32,826 nt of DNA from assembly GCA_027459705.1 (NCBI GenBank), contig DAIDHM010000059.1, positions 1 through 32,826 on the forward strand, written 5' to 3'. The number at the start of each line of letters is the position of its first letter. Within the stretch, counting starts at the first letter, position 1. The notes under the pieces are model-generated. The model was not told the DNA's origin, made no database searches, and saw only the letters and a list, made by a program, of their open reading frames with translations. This document shows positions 9,204-17,802 of this stretch, in pieces. A program made the position numbers and the translations under genes. The DNA comes from Ktedonobacteria bacterium. Lineage in GTDB: Bacteria; Chloroflexota; Ktedonobacteria; Ktedonobacterales; JACDGC01.

Positions 9204-10670
9204 ATGTCCAGTGCCACTGGCACCATCGCGCCCCCGCGATACCCAGGTTACGCGGCGTCGCGCCGCATGAGCTGGCTGGAGAGTCTATCGCAACCCAATA
9301 GCGCGGCGCGGAATTTTATCTATTCCGCGACCTTCTGGGTTGCCGTGACAGACACGATCGGACTGGTCACGTCAGCGGAATTTGTCGATCCCGATCTCTT
9401 TGGCGGCATTCCCTGGCTCGAATTCGGTCGAGTCAGGCCTATGCACGTCAACGGTGTCGCGTTCCTGTGGTTGTCGATGGGCTATGTCGGAGTCTTCTTC
9501 TACATCATTCCCAAGCTCTGCGGACGGCCGCTGTATAGCGAGCGTCTGGCGAACATTACGATGATCCTCTGGAATATCTGGGGGGTAGCGTTGATCCTGA
9601 CATTAGGGGCGGGAATGACGCAGGCGCGTGAATATGCTGAAGCGATCTGGCCGCTTGATATCTGGTTTGTCATTCTGCTCGGATTGACGGCCTATAATAT
9701 CTTCATGACGCTCGCGACGCGCATAGAACCGAAGCTGTACGTCAGTGTCTGGTATATCATTGGTGCATTGGTCTGGTTCCCGAATGTCTATATGATCGGG
9801 AACGTGATCTGGAACCCGCCGTTTGGCGCGCTCCAGGGCATCGATGATTCTGTCTGGCAGTGGTTCTATGGCCACAATATTCTGGGGTTATGGTTTACGA
9901 CGGGTGGCGTCGGTATCGCCTATTACATGATTCCAGCCATCACGCGTACCCCGGTCTATAGCCACCTGCTCTCGCTGGTCGGCTTCTGGACCCTCGGCTT
10001 GTTCTATACAATGGTAGGACAGCATCACCTCTTGCAGACCCCAACGCCAGGGTGGTTGAAGACCGTGGCGACCCTCGGATCTATCTCGCTCTTCGTCCCG
10101 GTGTTGACCTTCATTACCAACATCTTCATGACGATGCGCGGGAACTGGCAAAAGATCTATGAGAGCGTGCCGCTGAAATTCATTATCACTGGCGTCATCT
10201 TCTACCTGATTACCTGTATTCAGGGCCCCTTTCAGGCGACGCAGAGTTTCAATCGCTTGATTCACTTTACCCAGTGGATTATCGGACACGCGCATCTGGC
10301 GCTGTTGGGGGCCTTCACGTTCATCCTGATGGGCGCTTGCTACTACGTCATCCCGATCACGTTGGGACGCCGTATCTTCAGCGTCAAGCTGGCCGAGGCG
10401 CAGTTCTGGTTGATGACCCTGGGTTTCCTGGGATTCTTCATCAGCTTGCAGATCGCCGGCCTGATCCAGGGTGCGTGCTGGATGACAACCAATCATTCGG
10501 TGTACTGGTGCTTGACCGCCATTCGTCCCTATCTGATTGCGCGGTCCGTCTCGGGTGCGTTGATGGTTTCGGGTGGGTGGATTCAGCTTTACAACCTGTA
10601 TAAGACGGCGACCGCAGGTGAGTTCATCACCGCGCCCGCGCCCGCCGCTGTCGAGGCTGGTGGACTCTAA
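9204..10670 (+). CDS. ccoN: cbb3-type cytochrome c oxidase subunit I (CcoN)
   Basis: The 488-residue, roughly 12-helix protein keeps every metal ligand of the family. His81 (RPMHVNG) and His364 serve low-spin haem b. His362 serves high-spin haem b3 (GHAHLAL). His224 (WFYGHN) and His274/His275 (VGQHHL) bind CuB. Tyr268, six residues before His274, is where C-family oxidases place the cross-linked tyrosine. The His224-His274 and His275-His362 gaps (50 and 87) equal those I recall for Pseudomonas CcoN. The enzyme reduces O2 with electrons from cytochrome c and pumps protons. GGGAGCGAGG precedes the ATG at 9204. It heads a 13-gene operon. NO reductase activity is less likely because the NorB-type glutamates are not evident. 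Confidence 0.93.
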   Translation: MSSATGTIAPPRYPGYAASRRMSWLESLSQPNSAARNFIYSATFWVAVTDTIGLVTSAEFVDPDLFGGIPWLEFGRVRPMHVNGVAFLWLSMGYVGVFFYIIPKLCGRPLYSERLANITMILWNIWGVALILTLGAGMTQAREYAEAIWPLDIWFVILLGLTAYNIFMTLATRIEPKLYVSVWYIIGALVWFPNVYMIGNVIWNPPFGALQGIDDSVWQWFYGHNILGLWFTTGGVGIAYYMIPAITRTPVYSHLLSLVGFWTLGLFYTMVGQHHLLQTPTPGWLKTVATLGSISLFVPVLTFITNIFMTMRGNWQKIYESVPLKFIITGVIFYLITCIQGPFQATQSFNRLIHFTQWIIGHAHLALLGAFTFILMGACYYVIPITLGRRIFSVKLAEAQFWLMTLGFLGFFISLQIAGLIQGACWMTTNHSVYWCLTAIRPYLIARSVSGALMVSGGWIQLYNLYKTATAGEFITAPAPAAVEAGGL

Positions 10671-11036: not shown

Positions 11037-12182
11037 ATGCGCATGACGCTTGGGTCCGCCGTTGTGGGCGCCGCCATCGTCGTTTTCAGCGTGATCTTCG
11101 TGGTCGTGGCGATGCCCGTACTGGTTTTTCACCCGACTCCCTCCGACATCGCCGAACCCTATACGGCGGCGCAACTGCGAGGGCGTCAGGTCTATGAAGC
11201 CAACGGGTGCTTCTATTGCCACAGTCAATATATACGTCCACAAGACTGGAACCAGCCTGGTGTGACGGATTCTAATGGGCGTGTCGCTCAGTCGGGCGAC
11301 TTTGCCTACCAACAGCCCACCATGCTTGGCCAGCATCGCAATGGCCCCGACCTCTCCGAAGAGGGTGGCGTCCATCCTGATGATTGGCAGTATGCGCACT
11401 TCTTTAATCCGCGTTTCGTCAATCCGAAATCGATCATGCCGCAGTTCTCGTTCCTTTGGACGACCGATTCGGCAGGCAATGTGACGCCAACCCAGGATCT
11501 GAAAGATCTTGTGGCGTACGTTCAGAATCTTGGCGGCAAGCTCGCGGATGAACGCTATGCTGAGCAAGTCTCCCAGAAAGCGCTCTTCGCCAACGCGATC
11601 GGCGCGCAGGCTAACCCCAATGTTCCGGGCGATGTCTCCGGCCAGTTCAGCGACACCAATCAGAAAGCGCTACTTTCGGTTGTGCCGCAGAAATTCTGGA
11701 CCCTGCTCGATCCCGTCCCACCCGACCAACGGTCGTTAATCGATGGCAAGACGATCTATGTAACAAACTGCATTGGTTGTCATGGCGTGCAGGGCAACGG
11801 CGAAGGACCGGCATCGCAGTTCTTTCTGAACCCGTATGCGTACAACTTCACCAATGCCAAGAATATGACCAGCGGACTCAGCACCAGCCCAGGATCGCTC
11901 TATGAGCATATCCTGTACGGTATCAAGGGCACCGCGATGCAGCCATTTGGTCAGGACCTGACCGTCCAAAACATTTGGGACTTGACGAACTTCCTGTATA
12001 CGATTCCCAATGGTGGCCTGACCGCGGCTGAGCCGACAATGGACATGTTCATCCAATGGCGACCGTCAACCGAGTTGAACCAACTTTCGAATGCCCCGTT
12101 GGTTTCGCCTGGCCAGGGTTCGGCACAAATCAGCACGCAACCGCCTATTGCCTATCGTCAGCCAAATCAGGCCTGGCATTGA
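11037..12182 (+). CDS. ccoO: CcoO-type cytochrome c fused to a second cytochrome c (CcoP-like) domain
   Basis: After one N-terminal helix (about 8-31) the protein has GRQVYEANGCFYCHSQYIRPQ with haem-binding Cys58, Cys61 and His62. The CcoO features GPDLSEEGG, DDWQYAHFFNPR and SIMPQF follow, where Met134 is the distal ligand. A second class I cytochrome c domain follows from about 230: NCIGCHG (Cys245, Cys248, His249) with Met301 in GTAMQPFGQ. Canonical cbb3 oxidases keep the monohaem CcoO and dihaem CcoP separate. Here one 381-residue protein carries two haems and no separate CcoP is seen in the window. It would pass electrons from a donor to CcoN on the outer membrane face. The start at 11037 has GAGGGGGAAAGAGG upstream. 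Confidence 0.88.
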   Translation: MRMTLGSAVVGAAIVVFSVIFVVVAMPVLVFHPTPSDIAEPYTAAQLRGRQVYEANGCFYCHSQYIRPQDWNQPGVTDSNGRVAQSGDFAYQQPTMLGQHRNGPDLSEEGGVHPDDWQYAHFFNPRFVNPKSIMPQFSFLWTTDSAGNVTPTQDLKDLVAYVQNLGGKLADERYAEQVSQKALFANAIGAQANPNVPGDVSGQFSDTNQKALLSVVPQKFWTLLDPVPPDQRSLIDGKTIYVTNCIGCHGVQGNGEGPASQFFLNPYAYNFTNAKNMTSGLSTSPGSLYEHILYGIKGTAMQPFGQDLTVQNIWDLTNFLYTIPNGGLTAAEPTMDMFIQWRPSTELNQLSNAPLVSPGQGSAQISTQPPIAYRQPNQAWH

Positions 12183-12290: not shown

Positions 12291-12677
12291 ATGATGCATT
12301 GGCAGCGATTGGTGCAGCGGAGGCCCGCGGAGGCGGTCCGACGATTGGCCATTCTCAGTACATTGGCTATTCTTGGCGCGTTGGGTGCGATTGCCCCGGC
12401 TTTCGCGGATGATCGTCCCGATGGCGCGGAATTGGCCACCGCCCTTGGTATGCTGGTCGTGATCATGATTGCTTTCGCGGCGGCGGGTCTGGGGATGGTC
12501 TGGGCGCATCGCAACGGTGAGTTCCAGGAGCCTGAAGAGGCGAAGTATCAGATGCTGGCAATGGTTGAGGATGAAGTCGACTTCTGGGACATGGGATCGC
12601 ATGATGACGAGGAAGACGACGATGTTCTGGATGTGCCCGCTGGTGTACCGCGTCTGACGACGCCATTCGCTGAGTGA
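12291..12677 (+). CDS. CcoS-like cbb3 oxidase maturation protein
   Basis: The 128-residue protein has a first hydrophobic segment (about 17-39, ending APAFA like a signal sequence) and a second helix (about 46-70). The second helix is followed by VWAHRNGEFQEPEEAKYQML and then a very acidic stretch. The sequence after the helix mirrors the CcoS/FixS pattern of a tryptophan, a basic-Ser/Asn-Gly-Gln/Glu-Phe turn, acidic residues and a hydrophobic Leu. CcoS is needed for haem incorporation into CcoN in several proteobacteria. Here the family core is extended by an N-terminal segment and an acidic tail, so the match is partial. GGGAG lies 11 bases before the ATG. Confidence 0.5.
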   Translation: MMHWQRLVQRRPAEAVRRLAILSTLAILGALGAIAPAFADDRPDGAELATALGMLVVIMIAFAAAGLGMVWAHRNGEFQEPEEAKYQMLAMVEDEVDFWDMGSHDDEEDDDVLDVPAGVPRLTTPFAE

Positions 12678-15651: not shown

Positions 15652-17802
15652 ATGGCTACCTCAATCACGCGCTCCAATACACAGGTACCCAGCACACGTC
15701 GCCAAACCATCGCTCGCCCGCGAGCGGTTATCGATGTCGCCCGCGAACGCAGCTATGTCCGCTTTTACGCAGCGGCGGTCATCGGGTTGGTGTTGGGTGG
15801 ATTACAGGGCATCATTCAACGCATTCCGCCAATTGCAGAATGGCTCTATGCGGCGGGTTATGGCGGCCACCTGATTACTAACCTGGCACAATCCCATATC
15901 ATTATGGTCGGTGCAGGCACATTGACAGTAACCGCGACCTTTTATTATCTGCTTCCTCGCATTCTGAATCGACCCATATATTCGACCACCTTGACCAATC
16001 TCTCGTTTTATTTTACCGTCACGGGTGTTTATAGTTTTTATTTTGTCATGCTGATTGAGGGAACCATACTGGGCAGTGCTGTGGTCCATGGCATTGATTA
16101 TGATACCGCTCGACGCACCCTCGGCATCTGGTACGATCTGCCCACTGGTATTGCGGGCGCCTTGATGGGAATTGGCTATTGGCTGTTCGTGGCGAATATT
16201 TATCTGACGACACGTAGCCCACGTACCTGGAAAGGCCCGGAGGCCTTCATTGCCAAGTATATCTTCCTTGGAACAACCGGTCTCTTCATCGGGACGCTTC
16301 AGGGATTCTACCAGATTCTCCCCTGGTCGGTAGATTTCATCCGCCTGACCGGCGAAGCGGGTCGTATGATCGACCCGGTAGCCCATGCGCACATGAATAT
16401 GGTCTGTGGCATGGCGATGGCCTTGATGGGGATGTGCTACTACTTCATTCCGCGGTTGACGGGCAAGCCTATCTGGAATCTTCCCTTAGCGCGCACCTCC
16501 TTCTGGATCACCGCGATCGGCGTCTTTGGCTTCTGGCTTGGGCTCATTTCTCTCGGACTGATCGAGGGAAACATCATGCTCGATTTGATGAAGCACGCCA
16601 GTCTCACCACGGATCAAGCCTATGCGCTGGCCGTCGACCGCGTGGGAATCTGGCATAACCTGATCCGTGCGGGTTTCGGCGCGATCATGGGTGTCGGATT
16701 CTGGACCTTTATCACGGTCATTTATATGACCTTCCGCTCGAAGCCGCGCGCCAATGCCTATCCGTCCGAATTGGTTGAAGGGGATATTGCCCCGCCTAAA
16801 CCTGATAAGAATTCTCGCTTCATTGCCGTCTTCTTTTTCACAACGGTAACGGCCATGCTGATCGGGACTATTCAGGGGGTCATCCAGATCCTGCCCTTCG
16901 TGACCAATTGGCTGCAGGCCGCTGGTCAGGCGGGTGATATGATCACGCCGGACGCGCATGCGCAGATGAATATCGTCGCTAGCATCGGGTTTGGCTTGAT
17001 GGGACTGGTGTATTATGTTTTGCCACGTGTCTGGGGGAAGCCCTGGGCAAGCCAGCACCTCATCCGTGTCTCTTTCACTCTTATCGTCGTCGGCATTGGA
17101 TTATATTACTTGTCCTTGTTGACCCTGGGATTGATCGAGACCAGCGAGGTTCATCGCCTGGTGGCGGCTGACCCGACAATGACAGTGAGCGCGGCCTTCG
17201 CCCAGGCACGCCATGATGTCGGCTGGGCGCACTACTTTTGGTTGATTTTCTCGAACTGTTTCATCGCCTTAGGCTACATCGCCTATGCGACTAACGTCTT
17301 CGCGACCCTCGGGCCAGCAGGGTTCCGTGACGCCATCGTCAACTGGGTCCTAGATGCCGCGCGACTCATGGATCGAGCAGTCAACGTCAAGAAGCGGCAA
17401 CAGGTCGCGACGGTCAGTGAGTTGAGAAGCAACGCGATCAAGGTCTTCCTGGTCGAACTTTTCGCGGGCTGTATCGGATTTCTCGGTGCGGGTTGGTTCC
17501 GATCAGGGCGTCCGGCTTTTGGTCTGAGCATCTTCTTTACCTGGTTCTGTGGCTGGATTATCTTTGTTGAATGGGTGTTGGCCGCGCAGTCACAGGTCTT
17601 TGGCCCTGACTTCAGTTTCGTACGACCCGCTTTGCCCCTCTATTTTGGCTTGATCATCGTGAGCGCGGTATCGGCGACTGTGACCTATCTGCGGCGTGGC
17701 TTGCGACGGCCGCAGGTGCCGCAGGGGACTGGCGCGCGCGCGCGCGTCATCGAGGGCGATGTCCTGCTGATTGAGGATGCGCCAACCGCTAAAGCAGAAT
17801 AG
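15652..17802 (+). CDS. Triple-repeat haem-copper-oxidase-like membrane protein lacking the CuB site
   Basis: This 716-residue protein contains three tandem ~160-190-residue modules (about 43-190, 205-362 and 395-552). Each has four predicted helices and a shared pattern: IG-LQG-Q--P, a His-bearing helix, YY--PR--GKP and GLIEG. The pattern matches the last four-helix arc of CcoN in the same operon (IQGPFQ, GHAHLALLG, YYVIP, GLIQG). The haem-ligand pair position reads Q80-x-H82, H245-x-H247 and H436-x-Q438. No HH pair for CuB exists. After a basic linker (about 560-590), residues 597-645 resemble a TM2-type hairpin (FLGAGWFRSGRP), followed by one more helix. It may bind b-type haem and relay electrons, but could be purely structural. 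It ends the operon. Confidence 0.75.
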   Translation: MATSITRSNTQVPSTRRQTIARPRAVIDVARERSYVRFYAAAVIGLVLGGLQGIIQRIPPIAEWLYAAGYGGHLITNLAQSHIIMVGAGTLTVTATFYYLLPRILNRPIYSTTLTNLSFYFTVTGVYSFYFVMLIEGTILGSAVVHGIDYDTARRTLGIWYDLPTGIAGALMGIGYWLFVANIYLTTRSPRTWKGPEAFIAKYIFLGTTGLFIGTLQGFYQILPWSVDFIRLTGEAGRMIDPVAHAHMNMVCGMAMALMGMCYYFIPRLTGKPIWNLPLARTSFWITAIGVFGFWLGLISLGLIEGNIMLDLMKHASLTTDQAYALAVDRVGIWHNLIRAGFGAIMGVGFWTFITVIYMTFRSKPRANAYPSELVEGDIAPPKPDKNSRFIAVFFFTTVTAMLIGTIQGVIQILPFVTNWLQAAGQAGDMITPDAHAQMNIVASIGFGLMGLVYYVLPRVWGKPWASQHLIRVSFTLIVVGIGLYYLSLLTLGLIETSEVHRLVAADPTMTVSAAFAQARHDVGWAHYFWLIFSNCFIALGYIAYATNVFATLGPAGFRDAIVNWVLDAARLMDRAVNVKKRQQVATVSELRSNAIKVFLVELFAGCIGFLGAGWFRSGRPAFGLSIFFTWFCGWIIFVEWVLAAQSQVFGPDFSFVRPALPLYFGLIIVSAVSATVTYLRRGLRRPQVPQGTGARARVIEGDVLLIEDAPTAKAE

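Follow-up and report, generated by a model that had tools for sequence, protein, structure and literature searches.

A haem-copper oxidase relative of three similar arcs in the cbb3 operons of Chloroflexota, proposed as a di-haem partner of the oxidase

The cbb3 oxidase operon of a Ktedonobacteria bacterium ends with a gene for a membrane protein related to the haem-copper oxidases (HCOs), in which three similar arcs make up the core and the ligands of CuB are absent. The predicted fold, the repeat structure, the conservation of the ligand positions, the linkage to the operon and the absence of the CuB ligands are shown here. In our reading, the protein has no catalytic role and instead transfers electrons through two bis-His b haems, as a subunit or partner of the Chloroflexota-type cbb3 oxidase. 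This reading is given a probability of roughly 0.52, hardly better than an even bet, and within it haem binding, the geometry of the pairing, a physical complex and the electron donor are all inferred. The window is the whole stretch of DNA analysed, 32,826 nucleotides in length, and its features are collected in Table 1.

Table 1. Features of the cbb3 operon and of its final gene, in window coordinates
Feature	Position	Strand	Basis or remark
CcoN, canonical	9204..10670	+	helix II H, helix VI H, helix VII HH, helix X HxH
CcoO fused to a second cytochrome c domain	11037..12182	+	FixO + Cytochrome_CBB3
FixS/CcoS-like maturation protein	12291..12677	+	slightly under the Pfam cut-off; counterpart in the G288 operon
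Small membrane protein, 101 aa	12952..13257	+	conserved in the operon
Small membrane protein, 85 aa	13241..13498	+	weak match in a distant operon
ABM/Dabb-like protein, 106 aa	13525..13845	+	conserved across the operons examined
Single-TM protein with extracytoplasmic domain, 306 aa	14310..15230	+	gene of similar plan at the same place in other operons
Membrane protein, 118 aa	15292..15648	+	ends 3 bp before the ATG of the HCO-fold gene; counterpart in L036
HCO-fold protein, 716 aa, three COX1-like arcs + C-terminal 3-TM domain	15652..17802	+	exact ORF with ATG start; PF00115; AF2/Foldseek
Arc 1 (aa 34-192)	15751..16227	+	Q80-x-H82; in homologues Q or L at position 1, H at position 3 (8/8)
Arc 2 (aa 193-372)	16228..16767	+	H245-x-H247, invariant (8/8); third helix without a His pair
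Arc 3 (aa 385-560)	16804..17331	+	H436-x-Q438, both invariant (8/8)
C-terminal domain (about aa 575-716), three predicted TM helices	17374..17799	+	hydropathy; profile matches

The gene after the HCO-fold gene (18656-17907) lies on the opposite strand. Seven further distinct full-length homologues share the plan of the protein, and they are spread over three families in two Chloroflexota classes. The window's own family contributes those of G032 and G041, with a partial one in G220; the order of G288 contributes those of G288, G400, G401 and G402; and a third family contributes that of G448 (L087 6663-8756). Some of these coincide with L035-L039, which were taken from GTDB genomes. The order of the operon is conserved in L036, L037, L056 and L087, and CcoN is found on the same contig as the homologue in G000, G041, G288, G400 and G448. 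For G032, G220, G401 and G402, the contig appears to stop before CcoN would be reached, and the linkage to a cbb3 operon holds wherever the contig reaches. The family has a dN/dS of 0.06-0.16, and thus its selection is purifying. Three genomes from the same families as carriers (G009, G132, G403) have neither a protein of this type nor any PF00115 match, and no such gene was found in Chloroflexota with a more distant CcoN (L010, L014, L022, L028). In total, only eight distinct full-length sequences of the family were found, all from Chloroflexota.

The neighbourhoods of these genes differ in some details. An ABM/Dabb-like gene sits inside the cbb3 operon of every lineage examined, including L056 (8575-8886) and L087 (9481-9792). 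The G288/G400 group carries two CcoO-P fusion genes per operon, one before and one after CcoN (L037 1714-3901, L056 2506-4773), with a membrane protein of ~360 aa encoded between the first fusion gene and CcoN. Upstream of the G448 operon (L087 13864-15858) are genes for a CxxCH-motif protein of ~290 aa and an exported protein of 337 aa.

The core of the protein contains 12 predicted TM helices, and three more belong to the C-terminal domain. The three modules carry the same motifs with small variation: LQG-x-x-Q reads LQGIIQ, LQGFYQ and IQGVIQ in modules 1 to 3, the YY-x-x-PR segment reads YYLLPRILNRP, YYFIPRLTGKP and YYVLPRVWGKP, and GLIEG reads MLIEG, GLIEG and GLIET. Profile models built from a single module find the other two at 79-128 bits, far above chance. 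When compared with the arcs of the CcoN of the same operon, these models score 31-60 bits on arc C, the last arc, 16-20 on arc A and 5-14 on arc B, such that arc C is the closest to each module. Other Chloroflexota encode relatives of the C-terminal domain in ORFs of ~200 aa (E about 1e-4 to 1e-5, e.g., G244:C516, G156:C57, G148:C110), and given these matches the domain is likely to be a separate 3-TM module.

The only Pfam family to match the protein is PF00115, at 86.5 bits versus a cut-off of 34.8; the match falls in three stretches, each within profile positions of about 270-407 in the genome search. The cut-off of the CcoN equivalog TIGR00780 is not reached (52.1 versus 583.15 bits), and all other NCBIfam matches are likewise far under their cut-offs. 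A single-protein phmmer search of the PDB sequences gave no match, whereas the family profile reached CcoN chains in them. The fold was predicted with AF2 from seven sequences over 543 core residues (window 15724-17352), since a four-sequence model was poorer (pLDDT 64). The seven-sequence model has a pLDDT of 83.6, a pTM of 0.82 and 12 core helices. Its best Foldseek match in the PDB is the CcoN of P. aeruginosa (8smr_E, E 3.3e-9, TMt 0.75, 554 columns), followed by other CcoN chains and the cNOR subunit NorB (3o0r_B, TMt 0.73). These alignments span nearly the whole target in sequence order, and therefore modules 1, 2 and 3 occupy the places of arcs A, B and C. With the PF00115 cut-off and the 12-helix, three-arc plan both met, membership of the HCO superfamily is shown by sequence and fold, the fold being that predicted by the model.

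A phylogeny of the individual arcs bears on how the three came to be alike. It places all the modules in a single clade (UFBoot 93), with arc C next to it (57), and the AU test rejects a topology in which they follow the order A-B-C (p = 0.0053, and p = 0.014 with another alignment and an eighth homologue). A topology in which only module 3 joins arc C survives the test (p = 0.18-0.22), and the alignment is short and deep, at only 145-160 columns. The rival explanation is a diverged but otherwise ordinary HCO that has lost CuB, with arc 1 descending from A, arc 2 from B and arc 3 from C. In its favour, the PF00115 match of arc 1 in the G288-group homologues runs over profile positions 2-190, the N-terminal arc, and the full-length structural alignment is sequential. 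Against it stand the single clade, the rejection of the ordered topology and the finding that the best CcoN arc for every module is C. Descent arc by arc is thus held unlikely, and the likely course is a triplication, or homogenisation, of an arc-C-like unit, predating the divergence of the copies in the two classes.

An earlier note, made from the sequence alone, had described an HCO-derived protein of three tandem modules with shared motifs, resembling the last arc of the operon's CcoN. The tandem modules held, the three-module description is to be extended by the C-terminal domain, and the likeness to the last arc held but is weaker than the likeness among the modules. HCO derivation is supported by the sole Pfam match and by the full 12-helix HCO fold of the model, and the case that would have refuted it, a better match to an unrelated transporter family, was not borne out. 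Between the two origins it had offered, a distinct branch or an arc triplication, triplication fits better than an ordered descent from a normal HCO.

The ligand positions were located by aligning the modules de novo, arc by arc, with nine C-type and nine B-type HCOs, and counting back from the P of the Y-x-x-P segment. In this alignment, position 1 takes the helix-II His of the HCOs, position 3 takes the helix-VI His, and the H-x-H of helix X fills both; a profile alignment with PDB sequences agrees. Helices TMII and TMX hold haem b, and the proximal His of haem b3 and the His of haem b flank one residue as His-x-His (PMC10256718). Together, the alignment and this published account imply that each arc has its position 1 opposite position 3 of the arc that precedes it. 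In known HCOs, the low-spin haem site is thus formed by arc A position 1 with arc C position 3, and the high-spin haem and CuB site by arc C position 1 with arc B position 3. A cyclic extension of the rule to the third interface, arc B position 1 with arc A position 3, is inferred from the pseudo-symmetry. This interface holds no cofactor in known HCOs, and non-ligands (N/V/M and Y/T/S) occupy it in all 18 compared.

The same columns were scored over the protein and its seven homologues. Position 1 of arc 1 reads QQQLLLLQ across the eight sequences, and position 3 is His in all of them; both positions of arc 2 are invariant His, and arc 3 has invariant His at position 1 and invariant Gln at position 3. 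The protein contains 12 His, of which five are invariant, namely H82, H245, H247 and H436 at the ligand positions, and H335. Under the pairing rule, H82 and H245 would face each other across the third interface, whose pore is empty in the oxidases, H247 and H436 would line the former active-site pore, and the former low-spin site would be left with Q80 (or Leu) and Q438, having lost both His. Two interfaces thereby retain a His/His pair and one has lost both residues; this rests on the conserved residues and the pairing rule, and no distances were measured. Two losses among six positions would share one interface by chance with a probability of 3/15 = 0.2, so that the pattern of pairing is by itself weak evidence, and the invariance of the His is the stronger.

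Set against the requirements of an oxidase, the proximal haem His on helix X is present (H436, 8/8). The low-spin pair of a helix-II His and the second helix-X His is not, as the two positions hold Q/L and Q in 8/8. A CuB or FeB site requires one helix-VI His and the HH of helix VII. The equivalent of the former is present in H247, but no HH pair was found in the protein at the helix-VII equivalent, and hence there is no CuB site. With neither CuB nor an open haem site, O2 reduction or oxidase chemistry is inferred to be unlikely. The earlier note had read the ligand positions exactly as found here, with no HH pair, and had taken a homologue with a complete CuB site over the same helices as grounds for refutation; none is present among the homologues found. 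Its question of whether homologues always lie in cbb3 operons is answered positively for all that could be checked. It had missed that the lost ligands belong to one interface and that the kept ones make two complete His/His pairs, and the haem-subunit role that it had considered remains an inference.

In the proposed mechanism, an HCO fold made of three copies of one arc-C-like four-helix unit would be dedicated to the cbb3 oxidase. Two b haems, each six-coordinate through a bis-His pair, would sit near the outer face, one at the former O2-reducing haem site and the other in the pore that oxidases leave empty. The CcoO-P fusion would receive the electrons, perhaps drawn from menaquinol, at its c haems. 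Several points count against this di-haem reading: no haem has been detected and no His-His distances have been measured, a different metal or a structural role could account for the His pairs, only a small family was found and all of it in one phylum, and the genomes also encode cytochrome b homologues, so an additional quinol route is not obviously needed. A role as replacement for a missing quinol:cytochrome c complex was considered separately and is weakened, as a cytochrome b homologue (PF00033) is present in each of the seven genomes checked; the protein is therefore not simply a substitute for a bc complex.

Two further rivals were weighed, and both appear unlikely. The first is a structural subunit, a cofactor-free scaffold of HCO fold that binds CcoN or organises a supercomplex, with the His serving helix packing or hydrogen bonding. 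Duplicated enzyme folds often turn into structural partners, and the invariance of Q438, N249 and N440 indicates that polar packing is conserved too. However, the HCO ligand positions account for four of the five invariant His, which make up two complete pairs, and plain packing would need no His there. The second is an assembly or haem-delivery factor, which would hold b haems transiently and aid the loading of CcoN together with the FixS-like and ABM/Dabb-like proteins. The presence of that maturation protein and of the conserved ABM/Dabb-like protein in the operon speaks for it; the ABM/Dabb fold includes haem-handling enzymes, and the conserved His pairs would suit haem. Most cbb3 oxidases, however, mature without such a protein, and where a 12-TM core holds a bis-His haem, the haem usually serves as a stable redox cofactor.

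The di-haem reading can also be put in a bolder form, to which we lend rather less credence: a symmetric electron wire, in which a triplicated arc-C-like unit would place haem b in the oxidase-empty pore and in that of the active site, would have abandoned the low-spin site, and would feed the cbb3 oxidase. HCOs are generally held to consist of three arcs that came to differ in their ligands. A family with three arcs that are still similar, and a different choice of haem pores, represents a natural experiment on the origin of this asymmetry. It bears on whether the third HCO pore can hold haem, and suggests an additional redox subunit of the cbb3 oxidase.

No triplicated or CuB-less HCO relative is described in NCBIfam, Pfam or the papers searched, which did not cover subscription papers; within this scope the earlier claim that no family of such a plan is known stands. 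The closest other non-oxidase relative is NnrS (PF05940), a membrane protein that contains haem and copper and belongs to the NO response. It is alike in its H-x-H ... Y-x-x-x-P-R segments, and profile-profile comparison (hhalign) of the family gives a probability of 84.5% (E 7e-6) versus NnrS and 99.5% (E 1e-22) versus CcoN. NnrS membership is rejected, with no PF05940 match at E 0.1 and G000 negative, and with only a weak hhalign likeness. In Chloroflexota NnrS-family proteins (L088-L092), a Y-x-x-x-P-R-like segment comes after an H-x-H helix, as in HCO arcs, and these proteins score 82-85% in hhalign to both CcoN and the present family. The shared segments hint at a possible distant common origin of NnrS and HCO arcs. 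NorB, the catalytic subunit of nitric oxide reductase, is alike in fold (3o0r_B, TM-score 0.73), but the present protein is without the FeB ligands and the low-spin haem pair. CcoN, the C-type cbb3 catalytic subunit (TIGR00780, PF00115), shares the 12-helix three-arc fold (TM-score 0.75), the H-x-H helix with its YY-x-x-P segment, and the operon itself. The present protein differs from it in having no helix-II His, no helix-VII HH, Gln for the second helix-X His, three near-identical arcs and an additional 3-TM C-terminal domain, and is likely to represent a new variant of the HCO fold.
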